This document shows, in pieces, positions 975-64,000 of a DNA stretch of 64,000 nucleotides. The position numbers were made by a program, and so were the translations under genes. Origin of the DNA: Erythrobasidium yunnanense (Eukaryota > Basidiomycota > Cystobasidiomycetes > Erythrobasidiales > Erythrobasidiaceae); contig BCJC01000006.1 of the NCBI GenBank assembly GCA_001600175.1, forward strand, positions 573,968-637,967, written 5' to 3'. Positions within the stretch are counted from its first letter, which is position 1; each line of letters opens with the position of its first letter. The notes under the pieces were generated by a model that did no database searches, was not told the DNA's origin, and was given only the letters and a program-made list of their open reading frames with translations.

Positions 975-3900
975 TCAGTATTGCCGATAAGGATATCCCG
1001 TCTGCTGTCCATACATCATCGGAGGAGGTTGCTGTTGCATATATCCGCCGAACGGCGCGAATCCAGTTGGCTGAGCCTGGATAGGCTGCATTCCTCCCAT
1101 CTGGCCTCCAGCTGCGAAGCCAGTAGGCTGAGGTCTGAGTGAATCGTACTTCTGCTCTTGCTGAGGCTGCTGATCTGCTGGTTTCGCGAATTGCCCTGCT
1201 TTCATTGCAGCAAAGATGTTGGAAGGCTGGTATTCCGTCGAGGACGTAGATGATGCCGGGCCTTGCATTTGCTGAGGCGCTTGCTGCTGCGGCTGGTTGA
1301 ACATGCTAGGTGAGCCTGTTGGCTGTATTGACATTTGTGCCATTTGGTCTGCTCGAGCAAGAGTTAGTACTGAATACCGCTTTTAGCAGAACACACATAC
1401 TTGTGGGGTAGCCAGTCTGTTGAGGCATCATACCACCGCCAAATTGCTGCTGAGGTGCAAGCATAGAAGGCGCTGCCTGGAACCCTGTCTGCTGAGGCTG
1501 GAAACCAGTCTGCTGAGGTTGAAAGCCTGTAGGTTGTGGCTGGAAGCCAATTTGCTGTGGTTGGAACCCAGTAGGCTGAGGCTGGAACATCGAAGCTTGA
1601 GGCTGAGGTTGATACATGGCTGCTTGCGGCTGGAAGCCCGTTGGCTGAGGCACAAACCCAGTTTGTTGAGGCATCATGCCTTGCATGGGACTTGCTTGGT
1701 TGCGAGTAGGGATGTATCCCGTAAGTCCCGTCTGTGTTGGCACGAGTGGATTGAGCAATTGCTGATTGATAGGAATTGGGATAGGCGGTGCTCGAGGTAC
1801 AGATGGTTGGGCGTAATAGCCAGTCTGTTGAGGAGCCAGCTGATTGTCTTGTGCATATTGCTGCTGCTGCTGCTGCTGTTGAGGCAGTTGCGGAGCAGGC
1901 GCAGGAGACGCTGCGGCTTGTCTTGCTGGAGCAGCAGTGACGGGTGGACGACTATTCTTGCCAAGACCCATCGACTCTAGGTAGGCGTCTGTGAGGGCCT
2001 GAGCGTTCGATGCTTGGTTGGAAGACGCTGGCATGGCTGGAGTAGGCGACACATCGACCAAAGCAGGTGTCGCTGGCTTGGACGCAGGTTTGACCGTCCA
2101 TGCATCGTCATCGAATCCGCTGGCTACGGGTTGAGTCGAGCTAGACCGATTGGATGCCTCGCGGGTCGTATCTGGCGAAAGTCTGACGGGATCAGGCGTG
2201 GAAGTTCTCTCTATACCGGTCGATGACTTCGGTGTTGGTCTTCCCCTGCGAGTGTTCTTGACTCCGCCTTCTTTAGTTGTGAACAGACCAGATCCATCTC
2301 GACCAGCATTGAGCTCTTCTTGCAGTTTGCGAGCAAGCTCTTCGTCATCATCCATCTGATCCTCCTTTTCTTGCCGGACCTCCTTACGTGGCGGCTGAGG
2401 AGCCTCGGACGACTTGGACGCAGATGCACCTGGTCCAGCGGCAGTGGATCCATACTTGTTCTTGATATGCTTGCTGACTCTGATGATATCGCCTTCTCGC
2501 AAGCCAAGAGACCGTAGTGTGCCAGACTCGAGATCGGGTAGAATAGATTCGTCGATTCTGTCCTTTTCGAAGTTGTTGGCGTAGCGAGAGCAGTCATCCA
2601 CATCGCAGCCTGCGTTCAGGAACCATTCGAACCAATCTGTCTGACTCTTCTTGCCTCCAGGTGCGGCCTTGCTCCTATCGCGAACAGTCTCTGAGGGTGG
2701 TCGAGCCTTGCCTCTGTCGTCACGCTCTCTATCGCTCCCACGGTCTCTATCGCTGCGGCGCTCATCACCTCTGTCCCGGTCTCGCCTGTCGTCACCACGA
2801 TCCCGTCTATCATCGCCTCTATCGCGTCTTCTATCGCGGTCATCGTCTCGTCTAGGTCCCAGTCTTCTTCGTGTCATGTGCTCCAACAGCTTGAGATCGT
2901 CAGGCGACATCTTGTCGACGGGCACCTCGATGACCACGCCGTTTGTTTTGTGTAGACGAATCTTGTCGTTGTTTGGTCCGCTAAGACCAACGAACTCAGC
3001 TTCAACCTTGAATGCTCCGGTCTTATCTTTCCATATCCTAGTGCGCTCGCGAGAAGGCTTCGTCTTCTCGACGGGAGGAGAATGTCCGTTTCTATCTCGA
3101 TCGTAATCGCGCTCTCGTTCTCTCTGCTTTTCACGCTCGCGCTCGCGTTGACGATGTCGTTCTCGTCTTTCATCGCGCTCGCCTCTGCCGTCTCGCTGCT
3201 TGTCGGCGGCATCACGCATGGCAGGGCTCATGGGAGGTGGGCTTGGTGAGCGTACTCCAGCTTCAGGTGCAGGAGGGGGAACAGGAATAGGTGCAGGAGG
3301 AGGCGGAGAGACTGCGCTTCTCGGTGCTGGCGAGATAGCAGTAGCTGGACTGTCCTTTCTTCTTGGAGGAGGTTGCATAGCAGGCAAGCTGAAGCCTCTA
3401 GCTTCGTCTTCCAGTGCTCGAAGTCGCTTGCGCTCGCGATCCTTCCTTCTTTCCTCCTTTTCTTCCTCAGCCGCTTTTCTAGCATATGCCTCATCGTCAT
3501 CTGCACTAGCACTGGCTACCGCTGAAGCCGAGGCACCTCCCTCTTCTAGCTCGACATATGTAGCAGGCACTTCTCCCTCTTCACCCCGCTCATTCCGGAT
3601 CTTCCACCAATCGTCTTGGGAGTCGTCGATGACATAGACAGTCTCGCCTTCGACCATAGAGATCTCGTCTGTCCCAGCTGCTGTAAAGTCATAGGCTGCT
3701 ACTGCTTTCTTGCCAGAAGCTGCAACAGGGACTGGGGCAACCACAGCAGGTGGTCGAGGTGCCGCAGGCGCAGCTGGAGGAGGTGAAGCGAACGCTGGTG
3801 CGGGAGGCGCAGGAGGAGGAGGTGGTGGAGGAGGAGGAATAAAGGCTGCAGCCGGTGCTACTGGAGCACTTCTAGGTGGCTCTGATTCGTCGTCGTCGCT

Positions 3901-4835
3901 GTCGTCAGACGAGTCGCCGCCCATTCTTCTAGGTGGAGGAGGAAGCTTGAAACCACCTCCTGCAGCTGCAACAGGTGCTGGAGGTGCAGCTGGAGCGGGA
4001 GGTGCAGGAGGCGGAGGGGGAGGAGCTGGAATTGCTGCAGCTGCTGGTGCTGCTGCGGCGCCGCCCTGTCAGATGAAAGCTCGTCAGACTATTGATATAC
4101 ATGAGAGTGTTCGCTAGACCCACGTTTGCAGAGCTTCCACCGCCCTGAGTTACCGGAACATAGCACAATCAGCGATCTATTGCCTGACGAACCGGTAAGA
4201 TATACGTTTCCAGCCTTACCTCCAGGTCAAAGTATGTGCTAGGTGCGTATCCGACCTGTTTTGACGACTTTGAGCCGACGAGTGCCCACTCGCCGTCATC
4301 CTCGTAAAAGTCGTATGTAGCGTCTTCCGATATCGAGATCTCCTCCTCTGCAGTAGCTGTATAGTCGTACATTGCAGTGACCTGCTTCACGGGAGCGACG
4401 GGCGTCACATAGCTCGCTGGGACGAGACCTGCAGGCGCTTCGGAGGCTGACGTCCCGGCAGACGGGCTCTGCTTGGTTCGCACTTTCCACCAGCTGTGCG
4501 TAGATGATTTAGAAGTAGGATAGAAGTCAGTACAGGTTGCCCAAAGAGGAGCGCAGGCCCAGCGTCATGCAGCGAGTTCTGGGGAGTTCGGGCTGGCCTG
4601 ACGCTGGCCTGGCTGGCTGATGGTATTCCACGCACTCTGCATCGTCGTCCTCGAGAACGTAGAGCAGCTGATCCTCGTTAATATCGAGTTCTTCCTCGTT
4701 TGTCGCAGCATAGTCGTATTCCGCCTGGTCATTTCGGGACATCCCATCACAGCGGGAAAGCTACCTTTGAGCGCAGATCCATCAGAGATTGTAGGCTGTA
4801 CTGACCTTTACAAGGCCGATGTACGGCGTCGACAT
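975..4835 (-). CDS. SLA1: SLA1-type endocytic actin-regulatory adaptor
   Basis: Exons 4806-4835, 4636-4724, 4220-4493, 4124-4144, 1401-4065 and 975-1348 give 1150 residues. Three SH3 domains come first: one starting [12 protein letters not shown] right after the 10-residue first exon, a second at [14 protein letters not shown], a third at [15 protein letters not shown]. Then follow Pro-rich and Arg/Asp/Glu-rich stretches, the SHD1 homology domain ([15 protein letters not shown]), the SAM-like SHD2 domain ([20 protein letters not shown]), and a Gln-rich tail with many QPTGF/QQTGF repeats. In yeast Sla1 such repeats are Prk1/Ark1 targets and SHD1 binds NPFxD cargo, so a role at cortical actin patches in clathrin endocytosis is inferred. 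The fourth exon is only 21 bases. The start was chosen because [10 protein letters not shown] splices directly into the first SH3 domain. Confidence 0.93.
1859..1880. repeat. CTG/CAG microsatellite in SLA1
   Basis: A run of trinucleotide repeats on the + strand encodes a short polyglutamine tract in the Gln-rich part of SLA1 on the - strand. Its length may vary between strains. Confidence 0.8.
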
Positions 4836-8541: not shown

Positions 8542-11500
8542 TTACGTTTCTGGCTCATCCTCCTGAGTTGAGCGGACTTTTGCCATGAAGTTCGATATTC
8601 TGCAAGGAAACATTCGAGATTAGTCACGTCAACCTACAATCACTAGTAGCCGGGCGAATTACCTCTGCAAGTCCATCGTCGCTCCCTGTCCGTCATCGCT
8701 TTCGAGCGCGATTATCAAGCTCGGCAGTAGTTGTTCAACATCCGCCTCGCTTTCCAGCCCTGTACATAGCTTGACTACTTTCCTAGCGTCCAACTCCAGT
8801 TCTCCATTATTGCCTCGCACAGCTTCTATGCGTTGCTTGAGCAGGTCCAGGACACGTTGATACCACAGTATCATGCGTCTGTATTGAGCTAGAACAAGCT
8901 GGCTTGATGGTGCTTGCTGAGAAGAAGAAGAAGATTGGCTTTGAGGTGGTGAGTCCGAGGGATCTTTAGGGTCCGCTGATATCGTAGTAGGCATATTGAC
9001 GGCTTGTAGCACACCGAGCGTACTACTGACGCCTCTGTGTTCGAAGGCGCCTCTCAAAATAGCAGGGCTTGCTGCAGAGCCTTCTATGCCTTCCTGACCT
9101 TGATCACTACTACTACCTTGATCGGTGCTGAAAGCAGGCTCTCCAGCCAGATTTGATCTACCCGTCCAATCGAATTTATCTTCATCCTGCAGTGCCTTCT
9201 CCAGATTCTTGATCCTCCACTTCGTCAACTCTACCGATTTCACTTTATCTCTAATCTCAGCTAGCGCTTTCCGTTGGTCTCCTAGTTCTTTGGTCGCTTG
9301 TTGTAGAGAAGCTTTCACGCGGTCTAGGGAGTCTGAGCGGTTCTGCGTTTCCGTCTTGAAATCTGAAGAGAGTGATGATAGAAGTGTAGTGAAAGAAGCT
9401 AAGATGTCGGACGAGAGTTGTTGGTGCGAGATACTCTGCGTCGCAGGCATAGTGCCTGACGCAGTGGTTGAAGTGGAAGATGACAGATTCTGGACGGCTC
9501 GTTCTGCTTCCGTAAGTGGTTTTAGGCCTTCTTCCAATAATCCAAAGTCTCCAGGTCTCAAGCCTAGCTTGTTGGCAAGACGCTGATCTGCACCTGCTTC
9601 TAGCAGTAAGCGGACAATAGACCGACTTCCTACTCTTGCAGCTATATTGAGCGCAGTATCACCATTCCAGTCTTGGGCATCTACAAACTCCTTCGTCCGT
9701 ATGGCGGGTATCTCTTCTGGGGTAGATTCGGTTCCTGTCACTTCTTCTTCCTCGGAAAGAAGCTGTAGTATGCTTTCTAAATAGTGACGCGCACTAGCTG
9801 ATCTACCCTTGATGCCCGCAACGAGCGCAATATGATGGAGGACCGATCTACCATCATCATCGACAATCCGCAGACTCTCTTTCAGACAACTCAACAAGCC
9901 TTGTTGCCCTTGCCCTTGCCCTTGCCCTTGCCCTTGCCCTTGGTTCTGCGACTGAAACGTCTCTGAATCATAGTTGTTCGTCACCAACACAGCGCGCATA
10001 AGAGGTGTTTCTCCAGATGAGTTCCCACGATGCGGCTCTGCGCCTAGATTTATCAATTGCTTGACGGTCTCTAACCGTGCGAGCGCGGATGCCCAATGCA
10101 GTGCTGTGTGATGCTGGTCGTCTAAAGGGGTATTTGGATCAAGATCTGCAGGGAAAGAAGCTATAATAGCACTCGTGTCTGGATCGCCCGAGGTTGACGT
10201 TGCTGCTGTTGGCGTAGGGTTCGGGTTGTTCGGGTCAGAAGAAGTAGATGTCGCTAATGGAGCAGTATTTTGTTCGGATAGGAAGAGGCTCATGAGGAGA
10301 TTACGATGATCTTGATTGACGATAGAGGTTTCTGGGAACTTGGACGCTTTCGAAAAGACTGTACTGCCCGACGCAACTGGCGGTTGTAGCGATTGTCTAT
10401 TCCTACTTGACGACGATAAGGCTGAGGATGATGAAGATGCTTGTAGCTGCGCTTGCGCCTGAGCGGGGTCGTCCGTTGCTGTCCGCTTGCGCTTGAGTGT
10501 ATTAGGCGAATTCGAAGCTGAAGCTGACGAAGCAGGCTTCTCGGCCCCATCTGTCGTATCTGCAGCCAGAGAAACATCCGTAGTGTTCTTTGCAATCTTT
10601 GTCTTCGTTGTTTGGCGCTGTAACCTTGGCTTCTTTTTGGCTGACTGAGGCCCGCTGCTCGCTGAATCTCCATCTTTCTGAGGCGCTAGACTGGATGTCC
10701 CGTTCACGCGCGTTGTAGGTACGAGAACTGATGACCCTGTCGTGGAAGATTGCTGTCTTTGTAGATTCGGCCTGGAAGATGTGGATTGGGCTTGCTGTTG
10801 TTGCTGGGAAGTCGAGGAGGAAGTGGATGATGAAAATGGATCTTGGAGAGGGACAGTATTGATAGTAGGGCTTCCTGCTCCCGCTGTTCCCGCTAGGCCA
10901 GAGAGAGGTGGAGGCGGCGGCGCCGGTTGGAAATCGATGAGCGGTTGTATCAAGCCCAGCACACCATATTCATCTGCCAGCTGTTGTCCATGATGAAATG
11001 GTATCCACGTCCCTTGGTATCTCCCATACCCGCCTTGCACCTTCTCAAACGGTATCTTGTCGGCACCTGTACTCTGTGCAATGTCTTTCTCGAGGATCTT
11101 TGTCCGTCGCCCTTTGTCTATTCCTGCTACTTTTAATATCTGCGTTGCGTTCAACCAGGAATCTGAACGTCGTCGCATCACGCCTATTCCGCGCACCATG
11201 AGCTCCCATACTGGGATGTTAGAGTAGACGGCCTAGAAACAAGCCCAGCATTAGTACAGGGTTCCTTCTAATAGTATACGATTGCTTACACCCAAGACAG
11301 TCGGGCTGTTCTGCATCTTTGAGGAAGAAGGTCCTGCTTGTTGTGAGTGCTGCTGCGCGAAGGGCTGATTGCTGCTTGTTGCGCTCGAGGAAAACTCCAT
11401 ATTGCTACTGTTCAGAGGTATCTCATTCGCTGGCTCTCCACTGCGACTGTTCTGGCGTGCTCCTGTCGTCGTTGCTCCAGCTCCAGCTCCAGATACGCTC

Positions 11501-12037: not shown

Positions 12038-14292
12038 ATGACCATGGAAGGACCCCGCCCAGGCATTGCTGCTCGCCCGTCACTGCTGGCCATATCAAAG
12101 AACAAAGCAAGCTCGTCAGCATTGAGCGTCACTACTGGCACCACATCGCATGCATTGGAGAACAACAACGTAGAGCATATCGATGATGATGAGTGTCCTA
12201 AGCCTGGCGCTGGACCGCTGCTCCGCGATGACGGACCAGGCAGCCCGACCTCGCTAGATCATGCTAGTAGCAGCATATACAGCAAGAGAGACAGTCAAAG
12301 TATACTGAGCAGTGAAGAGTATGCCCATGTAGAAGCAAACAGTGGTACTTCAGACCCGAGGGCCATGCTGCGACAGCAACTCCAACGCAATGCGACATCG
12401 TCATCGTACCATAATCCTTTACCGACTCGATCAAGGAAGAACAGCTATAAGGGGAGTATAAGCAGTGTCCTGTCCACATCGCGGTCTGTCAAGGGCTTAA
12501 AAGATGCAGGTAATGCCGATTGTAGAGACCCCTATTCCAGGCTTGAGCGTTAAGTCCCGTCTGCAGATACTATTGCGCAAGATGACTTGTCCACATCCAA
12601 ATCGCAGAGGAATGTTGCGCCGAATCGAGGACGCCCTAACAAAAGGCGCTACTTTGTGCTCACTTCAGCTGGCAAGCCCGTGTTCGCAAGGTGGGTCTAT
12701 CTTGTTCGTCCTACTTGAGTTTACTTACGCTTTCCTCTTTCACAGCAACTCACGCTGGCCAGACGAACTCGTAGCCGATTCCGACACAGATCGCCAATCC
12801 TCCATCGATAAAGACGACGAAGAGTTCACCTCTTTAGTGGGCGTCATTCAAGCTATCATCTCTTTATATGCCGTAGAGAATGATAGGATACGATATATCG
12901 ATGCGGGGAAGTTGAAGATCGCTTTCTTCCTCAAGAACCCGATATACCTCGTCGCAGTAAGCGATTGGGGAGAGCCCGAGTCTGTGGTGTGTACACCCAC
13001 TTTTCTCTCATGACAATATCCGCTGACACGCCAATCGCAGCTCCGAACGCACCTCGAGTATCTCTACTTACAAATCCTCTCGACGACCACCGCCTCTCAA
13101 TTACAAAACATCTTCTCTAGGCGCTCAAACTTCGATCTACGCCGTATGCTACAAGGCACCGATGGAATGATGAATTCCCTACTTGACAATTTCCTTCCTT
13201 TCGATTTCCAAGCTCTATTGGGTTCATTGTCCGTTTTCCCCGTTTCTTCTGCTCTGAGGGGAGAATGCTCCGACGTACTCAAGCAACCCTCCTCTCCCTC
13301 TTCCTCTTCCTCGAAGAGGGTCTCAAGCACGACATCAGACAACGATATCCTCTACGCCATCCTCGTTCAGAAAACGACCATCATTACTTTATTACGACAC
13401 AAGACACACTCAATCCACCCTTCCGATCTGCATATTCTGCTAAATACAATAGAGAGCACGAAAGATCTACAAGTCCCAGGTTCGGAGAACTGGCTCCCTA
13501 TCTGTCTACCCAAATTCAATTCGAAAGGATTCGTTTATGCTTTCATAAGTTATTTCGGAAGGGAGGAAGATGGGAAAGAAGATGAGCGCGCGGAGGTAAG
13601 GGCACAAGGAGGACTGGATCTCGGAGTCATATTGATAACGAGCAATAAAGAAGGCTTCTTCGACATGCAAGCCTGGAAAGAGACCATAGCATCTCGCATA
13701 TTCTCCTCTCTATCTTCCTCTTCTGGCTCGTCGACAAGTCTATACGACCGTCTATTACCCGACCATACTTCCCATAAACCACTCTCTGCGTCCCTGCATG
13801 ACTTCGCACCGCGCATCACTTCGATCATCAGACACTGGATCTATAAATCCAAAATACACGTTCAGATCCTACAAGCTCCTTTCCAGCCTTCTTCTTCTTT
13901 GCTGTCGGCTGAAGAGTCACTCTATGACGACTTGAATGACAGGAAGCGGTTGATCACGCTGTATCAAGAAGCGAGAGATGCATTGCATCCTTCTTCACTT
14001 TCATACACTGGAAATGGAGCAAGTAGGAAAGCCCCAGCGGGCGCGAAGTTGATCTATGCCGTGGGAGAGCACGAGGCCGTGCTAGCTATCGTGAGCGTGT
14101 TCCCGCTAATACTTTCTGCGTTAAAATTTCCCGCTGATTGTGCGAGTGCAGACGAATGCAACGCACGAAATCTACCTCGCACTCCCGCCGCAAGTCCCCA
14201 AGAAAATGGCGACGGACGCTGCGCACGCGCTGGTGCGCTGGGTACAGAAGAACGAGTCAAGGTTCTTCCTCATTGGTGGACCGCATTTCTAG
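12038..14292 (+). CDS. MON1: MON1, vacuolar fusion protein (Rab7 exchange-factor subunit)
   Basis: Exons 12038-12509, 12582-12690, 12746-12986, 13041-14090 and 14152-14292 give 670 residues, all in consistent phase. The Ser-rich N-terminal region (about 170 residues) precedes the conserved Mon1 core starting at KRRYFVLTSAGKPVFA, then LVGVIQAIISLYAVENDRIR (first longin domain), RTHLEYLYLQILS and ILYAILVQKTTIITLLR. The C terminus (HALVRWVQKNESRFFLIGG) matches the end of Mon1. With Ccz1 it forms the guanine exchange factor for Rab7/Ypt7 on late endosomes and vacuoles. Exon 2 begins at 12582; this acceptor was chosen because it keeps the frame into KRRYFV while two nearer AG sites do not. Confidence 0.92.
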
Positions 14293-14588: not shown

Positions 14589-15307
14589 CTAGTCCCACAC
14601 TCTAGCTTCCAACACATATCTCTCAGGCGCCAGCCGCCGTCTCCTACAATACAACTTGCGTCTTCTCCCACTTTCAGTATTCCTCGCCGATTCTTCAACA
14701 CTCTGGATGGCTTGTATATTCTCCTTCGATGATTGGTCAATAGCTGCTGGTACAAAGAACATTTTTCGACCATGTTCCTGCGCGGTGCTTGACCAAGATG
14801 AGGGTGGAGACCATGACGAGGAGGATGATGAGGATGGAGATGATGAGGAATATGCAGAGGAGTATGATGATGCAGAAGAGCTGGGAGAGAGAGAGAAATG
14901 CACGATGGGAGGACGGCAGACATCCCAGCCACAGAGCTGGCCGTCCATCCCGTACATTGGTTGAGACAGCACCTGGACGACAGAATACCCAAGAAGCTGT
15001 TCGATCAGACAATCATGTCAGACTTGTCTGCGATTTCGTAGCATTCCTGAGATCGTACCTCAAGTTGCTTATCTTCGGCACTCTGGATCCGAGCCAGCGC
15101 GACGGATCGATAGGATGAGGAGGAATCCGTGCTTGCAGAGGACAAGGAGGTATCGCTCCGGCTAAGGCTTGGTGAGATGCTCATAGATGAAGACGGGGAC
15201 GCGACGACCATGGCGTCCGCTGTAGGCGTTTTGGGTGAAGAGGAAGATGCATGCCCGCTTGAAGATGACTTGAATAAGGATAGTCGTCTACTGAATATGT
15301 TCTTCAT
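14589..15307 (-). CDS. Unknown small protein, paralog 1 of a three-gene tandem family
   Basis: Exons 15059-15307 and 14589-14996 encode 218 residues. I do not recognise the family. The first exon is a Ser-rich, probably disordered region beginning MKNIFSRRLSLF, with no signal peptide or membrane segment. The phase-0 intron sits just before the conserved part, which runs LGYSVVQVL, DGQLCGWDVCRPP, an acidic/Ser loop, then RKMFFVPA, SKENIQAIQSVE, KLYCRRR, PERYVLEARVWD. The same order and intron position recur in the two genes upstream. The conserved domain is about 110 residues, with fixed Gly-Trp, Pro-Pro, FFVPA, LYCR and YVxEA elements. It converges on MON1 with a 296-base gap. Confidence 0.7.
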
Positions 15308-15714
15308 GGCTACTGAGCGTTGTACTGAGAGGTGGGGAAAGTAGGTCTGACAGGAGATGGAAGGGAGAAAGCAAGAGCCAACTTCTGAATCTACTTATAC
15401 GTTCTGTGTGCTGTGCTGCGTAAGCGACACATACACCTCTGAAAGATCTACAGCTGTCAAAAGTCGTTAGTCGCTAATTGCTAAGTCGCCCTGAGTCGTC
15501 TAGAGGCGGCTAAGCTGCGCGCAGCTTCGCGTATCCACGTACGGTATTCTAGATCTGCTTTCCAATCAGTGAAAGCAGGCTCTGCTATCAGATATCGTTA
15601 ATGACAGCTTCCGGGCTTTTGTACTGCGAGATTTCGGCCAAATTAACAGAATCGGGGAATAAAATTCTACCCATTGATGACAGTAGCTGACTAGCGTAAA
15701 ACAGCTCTTACAGC
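15308..15714. other. Intergenic between paralogs 1 and 2
   Basis: It should hold the promoter of paralog 1 and the 3' flank of paralog 2. It contains several AGTCG-type pentamers (15455-15505) and a 16-base perfect palindrome listed separately. No gene is supported. Confidence 0.5.
15512..15527. repeat. Perfect 16-base palindrome AAGCTGCGCGCAGCTT
   Basis: The sequence reads the same on both strands. It lies about 200 bases upstream of the paralog 1 start codon, so it could be a dimeric-factor site, but chance is not excluded. Confidence 0.6.
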
Positions 15715-16433
15715 TTATTCCCACGCTTTGGCTTCCAATACATAGCTTTCCGGCGATATGAAGCCTTTCCTGCAGTATAACCTCATTCTCCTTCCTCTGA
15801 AAAGCAACTCCATCGAATGATCCACTTTTCGTATAGCTTTCATGTTCACCTTCGAGATCCCTTCAATGGCGGGTACGAAGAAGATCTTGCGTTCACGTTC
15901 GTCTTCGCAAATAGAACATGATGATGCGATTGAGAAGGTGTTCGAAGAGGTATCGGAGGGAGAGCAGGAAGGGGCGAAATGTACAGTAGGAGGACGGTAT
16001 ATGTCCCAGCCGAGCAGTTGCCCATCGTGCGTTTCTACGCGACGATGGATCACATGTACTGATGAGTAGCCCAGCTGGACCTGCACAAACCTTAGATCAG
16101 TACGGCTGAACATACTTCATAGCAGAGAGGGCAGCATACCTCTGGCTGTCTCGTCTTCTTCTCATAATTGGCATATTGGAACAATCTTGCAGTACGGCTA
16201 TAGCTGTTATGGTCGTGCACAGAGGAAGAGGCGGACGAGTACGAGCTTCCAGATACTGAAAAGGATGAAGAGGAATCATTGCTGCTCTCGCTTTGAGCGG
16301 TATAATTGCGGACAGAGCTTGGGCGTGCGACGAGGGTAGTGTCTGAGGAGACCGTATCCGTCTTGGGCATCCGCACAACACAGGTTGTATCGGCACTACT
16401 GACTGAAGCAGTTCTGTTGAAGATGTTCATCAT
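15715..16433 (-). CDS. Unknown small protein, paralog 2 of a three-gene tandem family
   Basis: Exons 16140-16433 and 15715-16080 encode 219 residues, one residue longer than paralog 1. The start at 16433 (MMNIFNRTASVSS) was chosen because it matches the MKNIF start of paralog 1, although the frame is open further upstream. A Ser/Thr-rich N-terminal region ends at the phase-0 intron. The conserved domain follows: VQLGYSSVHVIHR, DGQLLGWDIYRPPTVHFAP, a Ser/Cys loop, ERKIFFVPAIEGISKVNMKA, RRMRLYCRK, PESYVLEAKAWE. Paralogs 1 and 2 resemble each other more than either resembles paralog 3. Function unknown. Confidence 0.7.
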
Positions 16434-17607
16434 GGGCTGTGTTGCTCGGTCTTTAGATGGCAGATGAGAATGGTGGACAATCAGGAATGAAATGGAAGAG
16501 ATAGGTGGAAGAGAGGAAGAGAGGAGCGCAAACGAATGCGGGATGAAGAACGAGGTATGTCTTTTGCGGACGTCAGCCAGCCAGCCAGATAGCTGGGCTG
16601 TACATCTGATTGCTCTACATTCGGAAAACATTTGGGAACTCTTGGATTCAAGGAAGAAATGGCGTACAGACGCGCAGAATGCGCCAATCTGCGGCTGTGC
16701 TGCCAGGCTACTTTCATTAGCTTAGTCTAAAGAAACAAGATTGTTTCCTTTTCGTTTGTCATTTTCGTTAAATCGCCAGAATGATGAAAGGCACTTATGG
16801 ATTTCGGGCAAGGCAAGAAATGTCGAGTGAGGAAATAAGCTCAAGCTCGCGTATGGTATTCCCTTACAACAAGTACTGTTGTAAGTACAAACCTGACATT
16901 CAGTACTGATAGCAGATATCATGACAAATTTTGAAACCGTGCCTGGAACTTGGCCTCTATATCCCGTAATTTTCCTGTATTATTGTACACCACACCTGCG
17001 TGCACTCACACCCGTGTATCTCAGGACTGCGCGCACCGTACTCGAGGGCCTGCTTCAATCTCTTCTGTCAAAGATGACAAGCTTGCTCCAACCATTTATA
17101 CCGTCAGAGACGCAGAAAGTTGCATGAAGACTTGCATCAGTCCTTATAGTGTAATGTACATCGGTAGCAATCGCATCGAGACGCGCTGCGAGACCATCGA
17201 GTCCGCCCGGTATGTTGTCGATGGTTGGCTTGTAGCTGAACGAGGGCTTGACTGACGGATTGGTATTCTCGAGAAAGACCTTGTTGTCGCCTTTCTGATC
17301 AGGATCAATTACTGAGGTTATATATGGAGAGGGAGCAGGGTAGACCGACGATTAGCATTACTGTAGTAGGCGAAACACTGACTAGGCATCGACAGCGACA
17401 TACACATCTGGTATAGGTCTCGGTGAGCGTTTCAAAGGCGATCCGATGTATCAGTATAAAGAGTGTTCGTTCGTCAGGTTGGTCAGAAAGCTAGAGAGGG
17501 TGAACATTTTGGATTCGGAAGAGATGCGCTACAATTGATACACGTGTTGATCAAGCAGCTATGTAAACAACACTTGCTTCCTATCAGAGGGAAGGGAAAC
17601 TGACCAC
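16434..17607. other. Long gap between paralogs 2 and 3
   Basis: It holds the upstream region of paralog 2 and an orphan coding-like frame on the - strand (listed separately). Short + strand frames at 16921-17255 show no family features. Otherwise nothing is recognised. Confidence 0.5.
17055..17351 (-). other. Orphan coding-like open frame, possible exon or gene remnant
   Basis: A 98-codon frame without ATG opens after a stop at 17352-17354. Its composition is protein-like: YPAPSPYITSVIDPDQKGDN, KVFLENTNPSVKPSFSYKPT, IPGGLDGLAARLDAIATDVH. Upstream, in the same frame, an ATG at 17507 starts MFTLSSFLTNLTNEHSLY and stops; beyond that stop the frame continues SPLKRSPRPIPDVYVAVDA and stops again near a GTCAGT donor-like site. 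No GT/AG combination I tried joins these pieces in frame. It may be a decayed host gene, or a gene with an exon I misplace. No family is recognised. Confidence 0.3.
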
Positions 17608-18364
17608 TCAATGCGTCCCTGGAATCTTTGCCTCCACCACATAATTATCCAACATCCACGTCTTTCTACAATACAGCTTCATTCTCCCTTCTTTATCATT
17701 CTCGACACTATGTATCGCTTTCATATTCTCTTTAGAGATCTCTTCGCTAGCGGGCACGAAGAATATTTTCCTGTCTGCGGATGGGAGAGGCTTTGTATCG
17801 GAGGGTGGGAGGACAATGTTCCACCCGTATAAACGGCCATCGCGTGTAAGAACGGGAACGTGCAGAACGGCCACTGGATGATGTCCTATTAAATGGTCCT
17901 GCGAAACGGTTTTGAATATCAGATAATGCCGTAACAGGCCGAAGAAAGGAAGCAGAGCTTACGGGCTCTTTCGCCCTGTGCCCACCACCGCCACCGCTTA
18001 GATTTCTGACCATTTTCGCAGCATTGAAAGTATTTGAGCTCGAAGCCTGTCCATGTGCATGCTTGGCATTGACACCAGCTGCCTCTTCATGTTGGTAGTT
18101 GAGCTTCTCCTCATGTGCACCATAGTGAGGATGTGCAGGTGTGGACGCTGCGCCTATAACACCGGGTCTTGCGCCGATATAATTGCTGAAGTCCCTAGCG
18201 ACGACAGGCGCTGCAGTATGCGGAGGAGGTGGTATTAACGCAGTCTGAGACGCTGCTGGTGAATAAGATGATGATGATCCAGCGCCTATACTGCTTTCTG
18301 CGGCTGTGGATAGTATCGAAGCGGTCGTTTTGGGCGATGTACCAAGACTTTGGACGTCCGTCAT
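17608..18364 (-). CDS. Unknown small protein, paralog 3 of a three-gene tandem family
   Basis: Exons 17963-18364 and 17608-17898 encode 230 residues. The N-terminal exon differs from paralogs 1 and 2: Ser/Ala/Pro-rich with a His-rich patch (HPHYGAHEEKLNYQHEE) and a Gly run. The phase-0 intron lies at the same place relative to the conserved domain, which reads LIGHHPVAVLHVPVLTRDGR, LYGWNIVLPP, RKIFFVPASEEISKENMKAI, RMKLYCRKTWMLDNYVVEAK. The loop between PP and KIFFVPA is shorter than in the other two. No signal peptide or membrane helix is seen. Function unknown. Confidence 0.68.
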
Positions 18365-18732: not shown

Positions 18733-19749
18733 CTACCGCCTCGTCTTTTTACCACTTGATCCGCCTCTCTGTCCAAAAGTACCTTTGCGATCCTTTGCTC
18801 TCTTCTTCGCATATCCTCTACCTCCCGATTGTGCCTTTTGCTGAACTTCCGCATACTTCCTATTAACATATGCTCTTCCTTTATCGTCATCCAGTAGTCC
18901 CGCCATGAAAGTCGATCTCTTGGGTTTACTGCTCGGCGCTTCCATTCCCGCTCTTGGTCCTTTACTTGCACTATCATCCACTACATGGCCCATCTGGAAG
19001 TATTCGGGCATCTTCTTGTTCTCCCTCTTGCTCTGACCTCTCATGAACCTCTTAGGATCCATCGCATTACTCAAGCGTAGGGCTTGGATCTCCCTCTTCT
19101 CTTCATTGCTCAATGACTCCAACGTCCTTCGTGGCATGTCGAACCACCCTTTCGATACATCTGAACCCTGTTTCGAGGCTTTCTTGAATGATTTTGTAAG
19201 CTTGGCCCGTGGCATTTCCCCCCATTTATCGGTCACGCCGGAGAGGATGGGAAGGTCGTCAGGGTGTGTAGTGACTTGACGCGCTTTGCCTTTGTTAGAT
19301 GATAATGCGATATCAAAGACTTGAGACGCTATAGCAGGTTGTGTGAAAACAGCTGCTAGGCGGTTGTTGCTGCTGCACTCCCACGCAACAAACTGCGTCA
19401 GTCTCTTCTCTATATACATTATAGAAGTCAGATCAACGCACTCATCCATGTCTGCGAGGTTGACGTCTCCCAGTCCAGTTTGATCAACCACAGCTGCCAG
19501 ATCCAAGCTTGTCCCAGCTGCTCTTGCTCTTGCATTGCTCTTTGCAGCTTGCAGTAGTTGTTCGAGGTCATCATCGTCGTCGGAATCATCATCGCTGCCT
19601 TCAATGTCGCTATCTTGTTCGTCGCTCTCTTCCCCCTCCGAGGAAGACTGTGATGCAGTTGTCGACTGACTCGCCAGAGGGGAGGACACCCGGGGAATAG
19701 TAGTGACTCTGGATGTAGAAGTAGATCTGGATGTAGATGCAAATGCCAT
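18733..19749 (-). CDS. FCF2: FCF2-type pre-rRNA processing factor
   Basis: One uninterrupted exon of 338 residues. The Fcf2 domain is in the C-terminal half: MPRAKLTKSFKKASKQGSDV, GWFDMPRRTLESLSNEEKRE, IQALRLSNAMDPKRFMRG and PEYFQMGHVVDD, then a basic tail rich in Lys/Arg/Gly. The N-terminal part has a long Asp/Glu/Ser run (SDIEGSDDDSDDDDDLEQLL). Yeast Fcf2 is an essential nucleolar protein needed for early cleavages of the 35S pre-rRNA. The ATG at 19749 was preferred; an in-frame ATG at 19860 would add 37 residues and shorten the gap to the divergent gene to about 80 bases. Confidence 0.9.
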   Translation of the reverse strand: MAFASTSRSTSTSRVTTIPRVSSPLASQSTTASQSSSEGEESDEQDSDIEGSDDDSDDDDDLEQLLQAAKSNARARAAGTSLDLAAVVDQTGLGDVNLADMDECVDLTSIMYIEKRLTQFVAWECSSNNRLAAVFTQPAIASQVFDIALSSNKGKARQVTTHPDDLPILSGVTDKWGEMPRAKLTKSFKKASKQGSDVSKGWFDMPRRTLESLSNEEKREIQALRLSNAMDPKRFMRGQSKRENKKMPEYFQMGHVVDDSASKGPRAGMEAPSSKPKRSTFMAGLLDDDKGRAYVNRKYAEVQQKAQSGGRGYAKKRAKDRKGTFGQRGGSSGKKTRR

Positions 19750-19943
19750 GATTAAGATGATGGACGATGGAAGATGTTGGATTCCAGTCGACCCGTCAAA
19801 CAGCGTGCTTGCCTTGGATGATCTGACAGAATCCCAAGGGTCTCCTCTGCTCCAACTCATTCCCTTACTGCAACACTGCTACAATCTTGGATAGATATCG
19901 TCTACTACCCGCTGTGCTCGCTGTCAGAGCAGCCAGCAGCAAG

Positions 19944-22623
19944 ATGTCGACAGTATCGCGGTCTTCAAATGCAACAACCGCGTTCCATACAGCATTATCG
20001 AGAGCTACGAATGTATACGACGATGACCGTGTACACACGCCTGAAGACTATCAAGCTATGCTGGAAAGAGCAATGATGATGCAGAAACCATTCGACGAGA
20101 TCCCGTATGCCTGCAATTCCATATCTTCCATTTTCCACATACATACATCTCCCTATTCCATCCATCTTCCAGCTAGAATAGCAGCTTCCCATCCAGCTTG
20201 AACAGGCGTGACCTCGACTGACTTCTGTTCCTCGTTGTTATTGCTTCCAGATACGACAGATCGTCATCATCATCAAGACTATCACACAGCAGACTCGAAG
20301 CTCACACTCAGTCTCAGCAGCAATATGGCGGATCTTCCAGCAACCAGCTTAGGCAATCGAACGGATGGCTGGGCGCTCGAAATGTCCCCTTACAAGCGTG
20401 AGCGCCATTCTACACTTCTCTTTCCAGATCATCGCTGATTCGGGAGGAAACAGGCCCTCGCCAGCTCCATTCGACAGGAATGGTTCTGCATCTTCCTATG
20501 CAGCAGCAGCACCAAGTGCACGACCTATCAGTCCCACGCACTCTGTATCCTCCGTAGCTACTTCTCGAGGACCAGGAAGGCCCTCATCATGTTCCTACTC
20601 AGGCTCCGTCTCCGCGTCTTCCAACTATTCCACCTCTGCCCGAAACGGCTACCGCCCTCCCTCTTCCTCCTCTCCAGACGACAACGACCCCTCTCACAAT
20701 ACCACTAGAAACAGTGCTCGGCACAACTCCTCATCGTCCTCAGCCTATTCCTATTCTCATCAGAGCACCCACCCAGCACGCTCATTGACTTCACACGATA
20801 CGTCCCATAACATCCATGATGGAGCCCTCGCTGCTCTCGATGAGCCAGGAGCTGCTAATCCACTCTATAGAGCTGAAGCTCAAGCTCCTGTCGTAGTTGA
20901 TACAACAGGCTGGGAGAACGCTTTCCAGACCGCCTCAAACCAGGCGAATGGGAGAGGTGCTGCATCATCATCATCTTCGTCGTCAAATGACTTTGCTGCT
21001 AGATTAGCAGCCCTGAATGGATCGGGGAGAAGAGCTGGAGCTGTAAGGCCGGCTTCGCCTTCCGTCGCTTCTTCTACAGCAGATACATCGTACGAAGCTT
21101 CTGATGCAGGTACCGAGACAGGCAGTACTTCCACCGTCTCCAAAACGAGCGGCAGCAAAGGCATTCGCGCACGAAATCGTGAGATACTACGAAACGGCAG
21201 CTCGAGCGGTAAGAGCAGCAGTAAATCGAAAGGCACGGGAGATCCAGAGATGGATGAATTGATACAGAGTATCAAGAAGATGGAGATGAAGAAGCACATG
21301 TTGGAGAATGCACCCAAACCACCTGGGCTGAATGGGAATGCATGGCGCCTCAAACCCGACTCTTCCTCCTCATCGTTTCCACAACCTACATCTAGCCTCT
21401 TCCAGTCTTTCGATGATGATCAGAAGAAGAAGAAGAAGGCAGAACCTGTAGTTGGGCACCTCGTGTCTCCTGAATATCTAAAACAGCCAAGTGAGGACTA
21501 TCTAGCCATCGCACGCCGTTCTTCCCAATCATTACATATTAGCAGTCTATATGACAAACGACCGAAATTACTCGTGTTGGATCTAAATAATACGCTCCTG
21601 GCGAGGAAAAGAGCGACGAGCACAGGGGCGAGAAATGCTCATATGAGACCTTTCTTGTCGTCCTTTTTGGAATATATCTGTGGAGCGGACGAAGTGGATG
21701 GGAAACTATATAGAAGATTTAACGTGATGGTGCGTTGAACCTTCCTTGCAGCTGAGGAGAGGGACAGTTACTGATAAAGGCGGTCCTGCAGATCTGGTCG
21801 TCTGCACAGCCGGACAACGTAAAAGCTATGGTCGAAAGTATGGGTCTGCTCAAGACTGTCAGTGGAGGTCAAGCTCCTTTTCTGGTCGATGTCTGGGCTA
21901 GAGACTCCATGGACCTGACTGAAGAGACCTACAATGCCAAGGTGGATACGCTCAATCAACTTTTGAACTATATACTGAGGTTGTTCGATGCAGTTCCCCA
22001 CTATCAAAGACTTAAGCAAGATCTGGCGCGCTTTGACCTGGACAGCGCCCAGCAAGCAGAACCGAACTGAGCCTATCGATCTTCTAGGCGATCTAGACCC
22101 ATCCACTATCGAATCACCGATCCAGCACTGGTCACAATACGACACTATCCTAATCGACGACAGTGCCGGCAAAGCTTGCTTACAGCCCTATAACCATCTG
22201 CACATTCCTTCATGGAAGCCTTTCACGCCCGACAATTTCCGGCCCATGACGTCCATTAAGCCTGGAGATGACGATAATGTATTATTACAAGTCATAGGTA
22301 TGCTGGATCATTTGAGGTTGCAGAGTAATATCTCGGCGGCGTTCAGGAGTGGACGCTATGGTGGTATTGGAAGAACACCTGTTGGCCAGGAATGGAAGAG
22401 ATTGGGTGAAAACGTCCTGGAGAGAGCCGGAGTACAGAAGAGCCTAAACTTCGATAGGGATTGGGGAGATAGGATCCTGAGCGTGAGTTTGCCTTATCCA
22501 AAGGGTTCGATACAGCTGATGAATCGGGAAACGCAGGGAAGGGACCCGTCTCAGGCTTTGGCTGCTGCTCAACTTTATGGCATCGATATGCGTAACGGTC
22601 TAGGCAGGGTCGGCTGGAACTGA
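19944..22623 (+). CDS. FCP1/NIF homology domain (HAD phosphatase-like) protein
   Basis: Exons 19944-20104, 20251-20397, 20454-21729, 21792-21941 and 21994-22623 give 787 residues. The first 480 residues are low-complexity (Ser, Gln, Ala). The FCP1-homology domain then begins KLLVLDLNNTLLARKR and continues HMRPFLSSFLEYI, FNVMIWSSAQPDNVKAMVES, PTIKDLSKIWRA, YDTILIDDSAGKACLQPYNH. These are the HAD-phosphatase elements of the NLI-interacting-factor family. The first motif, usually DxDxT, reads DLNNT at 21580-21594, so the second catalytic Asp is Asn. It starts 194 bases from the divergent FCF2 start. Substrate unknown. Confidence 0.85.
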
Positions 22624-60477: not shown

Positions 60478-61870
60478 TGTCGTACGTCTTGCGTTGCTAC
60501 ATATATGCGAGGTGATGTTGACGTTGTCGAAACACGAGATTTTGGCAGAGACGAGAGCAAGACGTAACTTGTATGGTGTCGTAAAGCATGAAGGAGCTCG
60601 ACTACAACACTTGGAACAATAACATCTAGATGTACAGCGACAACGCATCGCGGCATCACAGGTCCAGCTGGCAGACTGGAATCGAGATGCAAACGATGTC
60701 TGGATGATACGCGTTCGATAACGACTCGCTCATCTCGTCTCGGCTTATGACTAGCGCATGTTACCATCCATTCTCTTAGAATCTCAACCGAGTCCTGAGG
60801 ATATCGACCTGATCTGAGCGTTTTAGACTGAGAGATCCCGAAGCTTGGGCAGCGCAGGAGCTTTGGCTAGACGCTGTAACGTCGGCCATCGATGCATCTA
60901 TTGACGTGGTGACATCAACTGAGTCTAGCCCTAGTCTTCAGTCTTAAGCACAGACGCCTGCCGTTTGATGTGGACAATAATGCAGACATGACAATTAGTC
61001 GCTAGGGGGATGAGAGGACCCAGAAGGAAACGGCGAGGTGATCTTGAGGTAGTAGACTCGTTTCTCCTTGTGGTTGTACTGTATGTTCTTGTTCTACACT
61101 TTGACTGTCGAGCGTCACTGCCCATCACCGCGAGGACATCCCATCGATTCATCGGGCGGAGAGTGGGCATGGGATACATGCGTGGGCTGAGGAGATAGAA
61201 GAAGAGACGCATTCCATCGCATCGCAGCTTGATCTTCGACTATCCTTCAAGCTCGAGGTGATCGTCCGGGACGCTCGAAGCTGAGAGATAAGACCTCGTT
61301 GTTCGGATTGTGGGTGCAGGACAAGAGCTGTCACTTCTCAATCGTATCACCATCTAATTATTCACTATCATTTCATGTCCCTCTGATCCTTGTCAGATCT
61401 GCAGAGTCCTCCTTGCGCCCTTATTTTCAGCACGCGAAGTTGCGGACGCGCTGGGTGAAAATTCCTGGACTGGATTGAGCAGGCGGATCCCTGGGACTTG
61501 CGAGAGCTCTACTATCTCTCTTTTGGTTCTGTTACAACTCGTATATCGAACCAATTACCCTGGCAAACTCTGAGTGTACCCGGCGGTCCATTCCTCAGCG
61601 AGGACGAAAGAAGAGGATCAACATTGGATTTGAAAGACGCGACAGGAGCAAGATCCGTCCATTCAAGCTGGCCTTGCAACAACCTTGTTCACTCTGCAAC
61701 TCGTAGAAGCAGTCAGCTGGCGTATTTGGACCGGACTGCGACGGACCTCTCTGGACGAGAAAGCGCTAGAGAAACGGCACCTTAGCGAGCGAGGGAGGGG
61801 GAGCGCATTCGAGCTAGGTAAACACTCTTGCTTCTGCTTTACACCAAATTGTTGTACTGATTGTGGTGCT
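60478..61870. other. Longest gap: divergent upstream regions
   Basis: About 1.4 kb between two divergent starts. Frames at 60931-61212 (-) and 61498-61785 (+) are short and show no domain. A large 5' UTR or a long promoter of the SH3 protein is possible. No RNA gene or repeat was recognised. Confidence 0.45.
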
Positions 61871-64000
61871 ATGCGCAGACAGTCTGTAGTCGCTGGCGAT
61901 TTTACGCGTGACGATAGCGACGACGGCGAGGAAAACACAACCACAATGGTCATCAAGGCAGCCTACAGCTTTCCCAGCAAGAGTAGTAGCTCTAATAGAA
62001 GAGACAGACAAGCATCATCAGGCTCGAATGATCCCTTCCACTACGACACCCTCATCACATCCGGCGACCGAAACAAGGAGCTGCCTTCACAACCTACAGA
62101 GAACGCTCGCAACAGCTCAGACGCGCTCGCAAACACTACTGCAACACTCTTTGAATACGTACAAGCCCTACACGACTATTCGGCACAAACTTCGGGATCG
62201 AATGTCTGCTTGTCATTCCAGGCGGGCCAGATTATCAAAGTACTCAGTAGAGACGTATCAGGATGGTGGGATGGTGAACTGGAAGGTAGAAGAGGATGGT
62301 TCCCTTCAAACTACGTGGTGCGCTTGCAATCCTTTTGCAGCAATGTTACGAATGTAGCTGAAATCAAGGGGTTCTCGCAGGCTGTGACGGCAGCTCCAGC
62401 GAGCGCATCATCGCTGCATCTACCACACCAACACCATGCTGCTGAGCCCATGCGACGCGCAGCTTCTTCTCCCGCATCCACCGTCTTCGCGAGCACCTCT
62501 ACCTCCTCTACCTCCCAAAATTCCAGCACGACGAGTCTTTTCGGCTCGCGTCCGGACTCTCCTCCCTTTGACAGTTCTCGAATACCTCAAGCCAACGAAG
62601 GTATAACGGCATCCATAATCCACGCCATTTCTTTACTTCAGAACGCAGTGCACAATAAACGATATTCGCACTATGGACCAGCAGCGACGTGCTTGATCGC
62701 ATCTGTGCGCTCTGTGCTTTCAGCTACAGACTGCCTAGCTAGGGAATCTGTGATATTGAGAACGCATCTGAATCTGTCGAGATTGAGGAAACAGATCCTG
62801 TCGAATCTAGCGAGTCTGGTTACCAAGGCGAGAGATATCTCGACGGCTACTGGTACAGGCATGAGTGATATCATGAGAAATGAAGAAGAGAAGGAAATGC
62901 TGGAGATGGCGCACAACGTCCTTGAAGCCGTGGAGCATTTCCTGGAAACGGCTGTCAAATGCGGTGTGCACGTCCCTTCTTCCGTACTCGATACAGCAGG
63001 TTCTCCTGAGCATTATCAGCAGAATGGCTCCTCTACGTCAAATCTGTCAGTCGCGGAGAACCATCTACAAGTCTCGCAACTCCTCCGATTAGAAGACATA
63101 TCTACTCCAAACCTCGATGCTTGTCTGCAGTTCTTTCCTTCGACCAGCGCAAGCGCAACTACAGATATTGCCGATTTCGCTACGTTTCCCGCTTCGTCTT
63201 CTTCATCTTCATCGGCGACGAAAGGGCCACAGAAAACGAAGAGTCTTGCGGATGTCAAGAGTCGAAGAAAGGCGTCAGAAGCTAGTAATGCAAGCAGTGG
63301 TGGATCCTCTTCTCATGGCTCGCAGGGGTCGATTACAAGACAGCACTACAGCCCACCTCCTCAGCATTCCGGCTTGCCTCAGAAGGCTTCTTCATCAGCA
63401 GCAGTTCCGGGGACCCAGCCTGGTCTATGGCGGAATGCAGCTCAGCAAGCAGCGATGCTTCGGCGACCTTCTATGCCTGCTGTATACACTACTTCGACGC
63501 TTCCAGCTCCCCTTCTTCCTTCACAACAACAGCCAGCCTGGCAAGCGAACGACTCGATAAGTTCCGTCGCGTCTTCCATCGTCTCACAGACTTCTTCTCC
63601 GCGTTCAATGACGCCTGCACTCTCTTCTCCGAATGCTCCCCTGCTTCCGGTAGAGGTATATAGGATGTTATCAAACATCCACGACACGCTCCTTTCCACC
63701 ATCGCAGCGCTGATAGGACACGTTCATGCGCATTCTCGATCTTCGCACTCTTCGTCATACGCGCATCTTATCGACATGACGCGCGAGACTATCGAGCGCG
63801 TCCGCGAAATCTTGCATATCGTAGATATCGTCCTGAATCTCCCTGCCGTCCAAGCTCAATCATCGTCGAACAGCTTGAAGAGTCTGCATAAATACAGAGA
63901 ATCGCTCTATCTCTCAACGACGTCCTTGGTCAACGCCGCTAGGAAAGCTACGGGTCCCATCGACGAGAATGACATAGACACGAAAGATCAAGCTGCCCTA
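61871..64000 (+). CDS. SH3-domain protein, N-terminal part, possibly a Cdc25-type Ras exchange factor (3' end outside window)
   Basis: The frame from the ATG at 61871 is open to the edge (710 codons). Residues 90-155 are an SH3 domain: FEYVQALHDYSAQTSGSN, LSFQAGQIIKVL, SGWWDGELEGRRGWFPSNYV. A long region follows with alternating Ser/Gln-rich linkers and helical parts (ASIIHAISLLQNAV, LRTHLNLSRLRKQILSNLAS, MLEMAHNVLEAVEHFLETA, YRMLSNIHDTLLSTIAALIG). An N-terminal SH3 followed by such a helical region is the layout of fungal Cdc25/Ste6 Ras exchange factors, but the catalytic domain is not in the window, so that name is inference. A GTGCGC site after NYV could be a donor, but no acceptor keeps the frame. 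Confidence 0.7.
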   Translation, partial: MRRQSVVAGDFTRDDSDDGEENTTTMVIKAAYSFPSKSSSSNRRDRQASSGSNDPFHYDTLITSGDRNKELPSQPTENARNSSDALANTTATLFEYVQALHDYSAQTSGSNVCLSFQAGQIIKVLSRDVSGWWDGELEGRRGWFPSNYVVRLQSFCSNVTNVAEIKGFSQAVTAAPASASSLHLPHQHHAAEPMRRAASSPASTVFASTSTSSTSQNSSTTSLFGSRPDSPPFDSSRIPQANEGITASIIHAISLLQNAVHNKRYSHYGPAATCLIASVRSVLSATDCLARESVILRTHLNLSRLRKQILSNLASLVTKARDISTATGTGMSDIMRNEEEKEMLEMAHNVLEAVEHFLETAVKCGVHVPSSVLDTAGSPEHYQQNGSSTSNLSVAENHLQVSQLLRLEDISTPNLDACLQFFPSTSASATTDIADFATFPASSSSSSSATKGPQKTKSLADVKSRRKASEASNASSGGSSSHGSQGSITRQHYSPPPQHSGLPQKASSSAAVPGTQPGLWRNAAQQAAMLRRPSMPAVYTTSTLPAPLLPSQQQPAWQANDSISSVASSIVSQTSSPRSMTPALSSPNAPLLPVEVYRMLSNIHDTLLSTIAALIGHVHAHSRSSHSSSYAHLIDMTRETIERVREILHIVDIVLNLPAVQAQSSSNSLKSLHKYRESLYLSTTSLVNAARKATGPIDENDIDTKDQAAL

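Follow-up and report, generated by a model that had tools for sequence, protein, structure and literature searches.

We analysed a 64,000-nt window of the Erythrobasidium yunnanense genome (GCA_001600175.1, contig BCJC01000006.1), whose numbering is used below. It contains three tandem genes on the minus strand that code for small proteins with a common conserved domain, namely gene 3 (18364-17608), gene 2 (16433-15715) and gene 1 (15307-14589), separated by 1174 bp (genes 3/2) and 407 bp (genes 2/1). Their spliced products comprise 230, 219 and 218 residues, respectively. Each gene has a single GT-AG phase-0 intron, found in all three immediately upstream of the conserved domain (Table 1). 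An earlier note on this DNA had described three same-strand genes of these lengths with one phase-0 intron each at a matching place, and its coordinates, strand, lengths and introns were confirmed. The introns were called from splice consensus and conservation, and the reading frame would equally survive the use of many other GT/GC-AG pairs. The 1.2-kb spacer between genes 2 and 3 (16434-17607) harbours no clear gene, nor did the genome searches list traces of an additional copy there.

Table 1. Features of the tandem genes and of their immediate neighbours in the window (ORF, open reading frame)
Feature	Position	Strand	Basis or remark
Gene 1 exon 1, Ser-rich N-terminal part, 83 aa	15059..15307	-	ORF and splice model; resembles gene 2 exon 1
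Gene 1 intron, 62 nt, phase 0	14997..15058	-	GT...AG, both exons in frame; position shared with genes 2 and 3 and the C5 model
Gene 1 exon 2, conserved domain with long Ser-rich loop, 135 aa + stop	14589..14996	-	
Gene 2 exon 1, Ser-rich N-terminal part, 98 aa	16140..16433	-	ORF and splice model
Gene 2 intron, 59 nt, phase 0	16081..16139	-	Phase counted from ATG at 16433
Gene 2 exon 2, conserved domain with Ser-rich loop, 121 aa + stop	15715..16080	-	
Gene 3 exon 1, low-complexity N-terminal part, 134 aa	17963..18364	-	Not detectably similar to exon 1 of gene 1 or gene 2
Gene 3 intron, 64 nt, phase 0	17899..17962	-	
Gene 3 exon 2, conserved domain without Ser-rich loop, 96 aa + stop	17608..17898	-	First row of the first structure model
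MON1, three Fuz_longin domains	12504..14292 (pieces checked)	+	Fuz_longin_1 43.4, Fuz_longin_2 77.3, Fuz_longin_3 69.2 bits
ORF with Fcf2 pre-rRNA processing domain, other flank of the tandem	18733..19860	-	PF08698, E 1.5e-20

The second exons of the three genes are clearly related, as none of 500 shuffles reached the alignment score in any of the three tandem pairs and genome searches linked genes 1 and 2 at E 1.4e-16 and 2.9e-24. All the motifs named in the earlier note are present in the aligned second exons, and RK precedes (I/M)FFVP in all three. The conserved domain is real, but its core spans ~80 aa rather than the ~110 residues first estimated, and genes 1 and 2 have an extra Ser-rich loop of differing length within it that gene 3 lacks. 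The first exons are of low complexity. Their combined Ser and Thr contents are 40% (gene 1), 36% (gene 2) and 20% (gene 3), and hence the label 'Ser-rich' suits the first two genes and fits gene 3 less well. No shuffle out of 500 reached the score of the first exons of genes 1 and 2. In contrast, 123 and 95 of 500 shuffles did so when that of gene 3 was compared with those of genes 1 and 2, indicating that it is not similar to them. The fast N-terminal divergence postulated earlier is therefore borne out for gene 3 relative to the other two. Genes 1 and 2 had also been considered the closest pair; their similar first exons and shared loop agree with this view, whereas identity in the aligned codons of exon 2 is nearly equal in the three pairs (50% for 1-2, 46% for 1-3 and 49% for 2-3).

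Searches of the genome (20.9 Mb in 10 contigs) revealed a fourth member on another contig, called C5 (602302-602559, minus strand), with gene 2 (E 2.0e-4) and gene 3 (E 0.0013) as queries; it was not reported with gene 1. The reverse search from the C5 member retrieved gene 2 (E 8.4e-5) and gene 3 (E 0.00127), and its blastp scores were 43.5 bits against gene 2, 35.8 against gene 3 and 21.2 against gene 1. A plausible model of this gene codes for 96 aa, i.e. a Ser/Thr-rich start of 16 aa followed by an 80-aa domain that ends at the same point as those of the tandem copies, with a 60-nt phase-0 intron at the same position. This intron has no internal stop and a length divisible by 3, and its removal is assumed from the shared position. 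All six matches of a consensus query fell within the four members. With the four exon 2 queries and the consensus, no fifth locus was found at E 10 or better among the best-scored candidates apart from a place on contig C4 (280027-280203; E 0.3, 27% identity), which was set aside since it has none of the family motifs. As the genome search scored the best candidates only, the family has at least four members.

We then considered the age of the copies. In the tandem pairs, third codon positions agree at a frequency of only 0.31-0.32, compared with 0.57-0.72 for the first and second positions, and this pattern of purifying selection is found in all six pairs of the four members. The silent sites thus appear to be saturated while the protein has been kept, which argues that the duplications are old and that the copies are under purifying selection. 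Judging from these codon comparisons, the tandem duplications are old, and a recent burst is unsupported. The reading of the earlier note, in which local duplication suggests a lineage-specific expansion, is correct only in part: the tandem paralogs are there, but the fourth copy on another contig and the agreement of ~0.3 at third positions point to an older history. This genome contains an old, selected gene family of at least four members, three of them in tandem.

The earlier note could not assign the domain to any known family, and this still stands. Pfam gave nothing over cut-off for the family, in a scan of the six exon ORFs among 9 proteins and in a scan of the four members, and the latter returned no longin match either. 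An NCBIfam scan gave zero matches for the family. Searches of PDB sequences yielded no significant match (best E 0.19): query A2 gave none, query A3 one at E 10 and gene 3 thirteen at E 0.19 or worse, comprising 11 UVR8 chains aligned at 'DGRLYGW', a stretch typical of RCC1 repeats, together with 2kel and 6h1w. Sub-threshold Pfam matches to RCC1_2 (11 residues), DUF2719 (29 residues), DHHA1 (30 residues) and RDM1 (E 0.15) were regarded as chance. The search for viral or prokaryotic relatives, which did not extend to eukaryotic mobile elements, produced 14 pattern stretches in viral contigs and 77 in genome contigs, none of which was confirmed by tblastn. The eukaryotic comparison covered this one genome. 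By sequence comparison, the domain adds an unnamed family that matched nothing in the libraries searched.

Two structure models led by different members gave the same element order. The predicted arrangement, b1-b2-b3-helix-b4-b5, would correspond to a five-stranded barrel of the oligonucleotide/oligosaccharide-binding (OB) type. The fold prediction proposed in the earlier note thus yielded an OB-like order in both models, but OB families gave no profile match, the four exon 2 domains having only the sub-threshold RCC1_2 and RDM1 matches in Pfam. We propose with moderate confidence that the domain is a five-stranded OB-type barrel carried by an intracellular binding protein with a low-complexity arm. 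No hydrophobic leader was seen by eye in the four first exons, and the proteins would be intracellular, non-secreted candidate binding proteins. The barrel would recognize a partner, i.e. a protein, a lipid head group or a nucleic acid, via the conserved basic and aromatic strand b4 and neighbouring loops. In genes 1 and 2, the Ser-rich loop is predicted to be inserted between b2 and b3. As for the low-complexity first exon, it may form a disordered arm, probably phosphorylated, which would modulate binding and vary from copy to copy.

It is somewhat unlikely, though not to be neglected, that the fold call is wrong and that the domain adopts another small beta-rich or lineage-specific fold, the OB matches reflecting a common topology only. 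No longin or Tubby-like chain is named among the structure matches listed, which does not exclude such folds. The agreement in element order between two models with different lead members argues against a wrong call, as does the apparent concentration of the structure matches listed on one fold class across unrelated families.

If the domain is an OB-type barrel, it might bind single-stranded DNA or RNA, with the basic strand b4 as the contact. Many OB domains act in this manner, the stretch around (K/R/S)L(Y/F)(C/A)R is basic and conserved, and PrgE, including a DNA-bound entry, is among the structure matches listed. However, the net charge of the four domains is merely +1 to +4, OB folds also bind proteins and sugars, and the MON1 and CCZ1 neighbours described below do not suggest a role with nucleic acids. 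Altogether, we regard nucleic acid binding as unlikely.

The tandem abuts MON1, which is convergent with gene 1, its stop codon at 14292 lying ~300 bp from that of gene 1. No other PF19037 match was found in the genome; the Fuz_longin_2 and Fuz_longin_3 scores of Table 1 were obtained after splicing of an intron (14091-14151). Elsewhere in the window, we observed a KilA-N and ankyrin repeat protein (8659-11199, minus strand), presumably a cell-cycle transcription factor of the Mbp1/Swi4 type, an SLA1-like endocytic adaptor with SH3 and SHD1 domains (1306-3924, minus strand), a phosphatase of the NLI-interacting-factor type encoded over several exons, with a long Ser-rich N-terminal part (20365-22623, plus strand), and an SH3 and DUF7783 protein that reaches the window edge (61634-63997, plus strand).

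The C5 member is located ~400 bp downstream of a CCZ1-like gene, on the same strand, with GLE1 on its other side. The modelled spliced product of the CCZ1-like gene (665 aa) scores 26.8 bits, for a cut-off of 23.7, with Intu_longin_1, which is the first of the longin domains in INTU, CCZ1 and HPS4. The genome search with PF19031 found this gene alone (20.1 bits when unspliced, below cut-off), and the sole PDB sequence match of its product is Ccz1 (5ldd_B), a weak one (E 0.42). Intu_longin_3 was not found in a genome search that had no control match. Also beside CCZ1 on C5 (L024:2546-6508), WD40 repeats and a zf-RING_16 domain were seen in ORFs that may belong to one gene. Its likely product is WDR59/Mtc5 of the SEA/GATOR2 complex, which would be a second vacuole-linked neighbour at this locus. 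Segmental duplication of the MON1 block as the source of the C5 copy was not retained. A comparison of 687 ORF stretches of the window with the 57.5 kb surrounding the C5 gene, taken in six pieces, showed no common gene order, in a weak test since tblastn missed the C5 member itself (43.5 bits by blastp). With masking, four matches reached E 1e-3 or better, the best one (E 1e-10) between two SH3 domains, one in each region; without masking, the best was 1309-4068, in the SLA1-like gene (E 2.9e-11).

Mon1-Ccz1 is the guanine nucleotide exchange factor (GEF) of Rab7/Ypt7. According to the available text of PMC12383261, it is a dimer in fungi and has in animals a third subunit, RMC1/Bulli, that mediates membrane recruitment. 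The family might therefore serve this GEF as small accessory or recruiter proteins, with a role like that of RMC1/Bulli in membrane recruitment but without homology to it. The positions of the tandem next to the single MON1 found and of the C5 member next to the CCZ1-like gene are in favour of this idea. RMC1_C was found neither by Pfam in family members nor in the genome, in a search without any control match, which is consistent with the dimeric fungal complex described in that text (PMC12383261). Conversely, the adjacency was spotted after the fact in one genome; its probability by chance, ~0.3% by rough arithmetic assuming ~7,500 genes and ~10 partners of the flanking genes, is small but not decisive. 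Intu_longin_3 is missing from the matches, MON1 and CCZ1 are not co-expressed in Cryptococcus according to the text available for PMC10901339, and our literature search found no paper joining OB-fold, Mon1 and Ccz1, nor anything useful on gene order or on Cryptococcus loci next to MON1 or CCZ1. Given the after-the-fact observation in a single genome and the lack of co-expression in Cryptococcus, we hold the link as a lead only and consider it improbable. Slightly more doubtful still is its most specific form, in which the proteins would be lineage-specific accessory subunits of the fungal GEF, i.e. tail-tuned OB-type adaptors encoded beside both GEF genes and playing the RMC1/Bulli part.

It is even less probable that the C5 copy represents the last exons of CCZ1, in which case the domain would once have formed the C-terminal part of that protein, with the tandem genes as its freed copies. 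The C5 domain is indeed on the CCZ1 strand, ~400 bp from the CCZ1 stop in the splice model, whose last exon is uncertain. Nevertheless, it starts with an ATG of its own and resembles genes 1 and 2 in having a Ser-rich first exon, and the 419-bp spacer contains two stops in each of the three frames, routes via further introns not having been worked out. Finally, the view that the tandem consists of pseudogenes or spurious frames, as might be feared for small genes whose frames were read from the DNA alone, is barely credible given the purifying-selection pattern in six of six pairs and the intact frames and usable splice sites in four of four copies.

The family most likely functions in binding, and the Rab7 GEF is the first partner to consider; the adjacency of two loci to MON1 and CCZ1 would make the Rab7/vacuole pathway the first field in which to look for partners. 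The family enlarges the unnamed portion of fungal proteomes and has a predicted fold that can be tested. If the adjacency is functional, it would point to unrecognized regulators of Rab7 activation in the fungi, whose complex is described as dimeric, and the need of animals for a third subunit would become testable from a second lineage.

Among known systems, the OB-fold domains of eIF5A/EF-P/HEX-1 (C-terminal), proteasome Rpt proteins and PrgE resemble the family domain in the predicted b1-b2-b3-helix-b4-b5 order, the size of ~80 aa and a variable inter-strand loop. The longin domains of MON1 and CCZ1 are similarly small alpha/beta domains and are genomic neighbours, but their strand-helix order is unlike that predicted for the family. 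RMC1/Bulli is large in size, in contrast with the family proteins, which are of ~100-230 aa and have no RMC1_C match. It also differs by a beta-propeller domain with a basic patch, as described in the available text of PMC12383261. The possible parallel with this third metazoan subunit would be functional only, in that family genes adjoin both MON1 and CCZ1.
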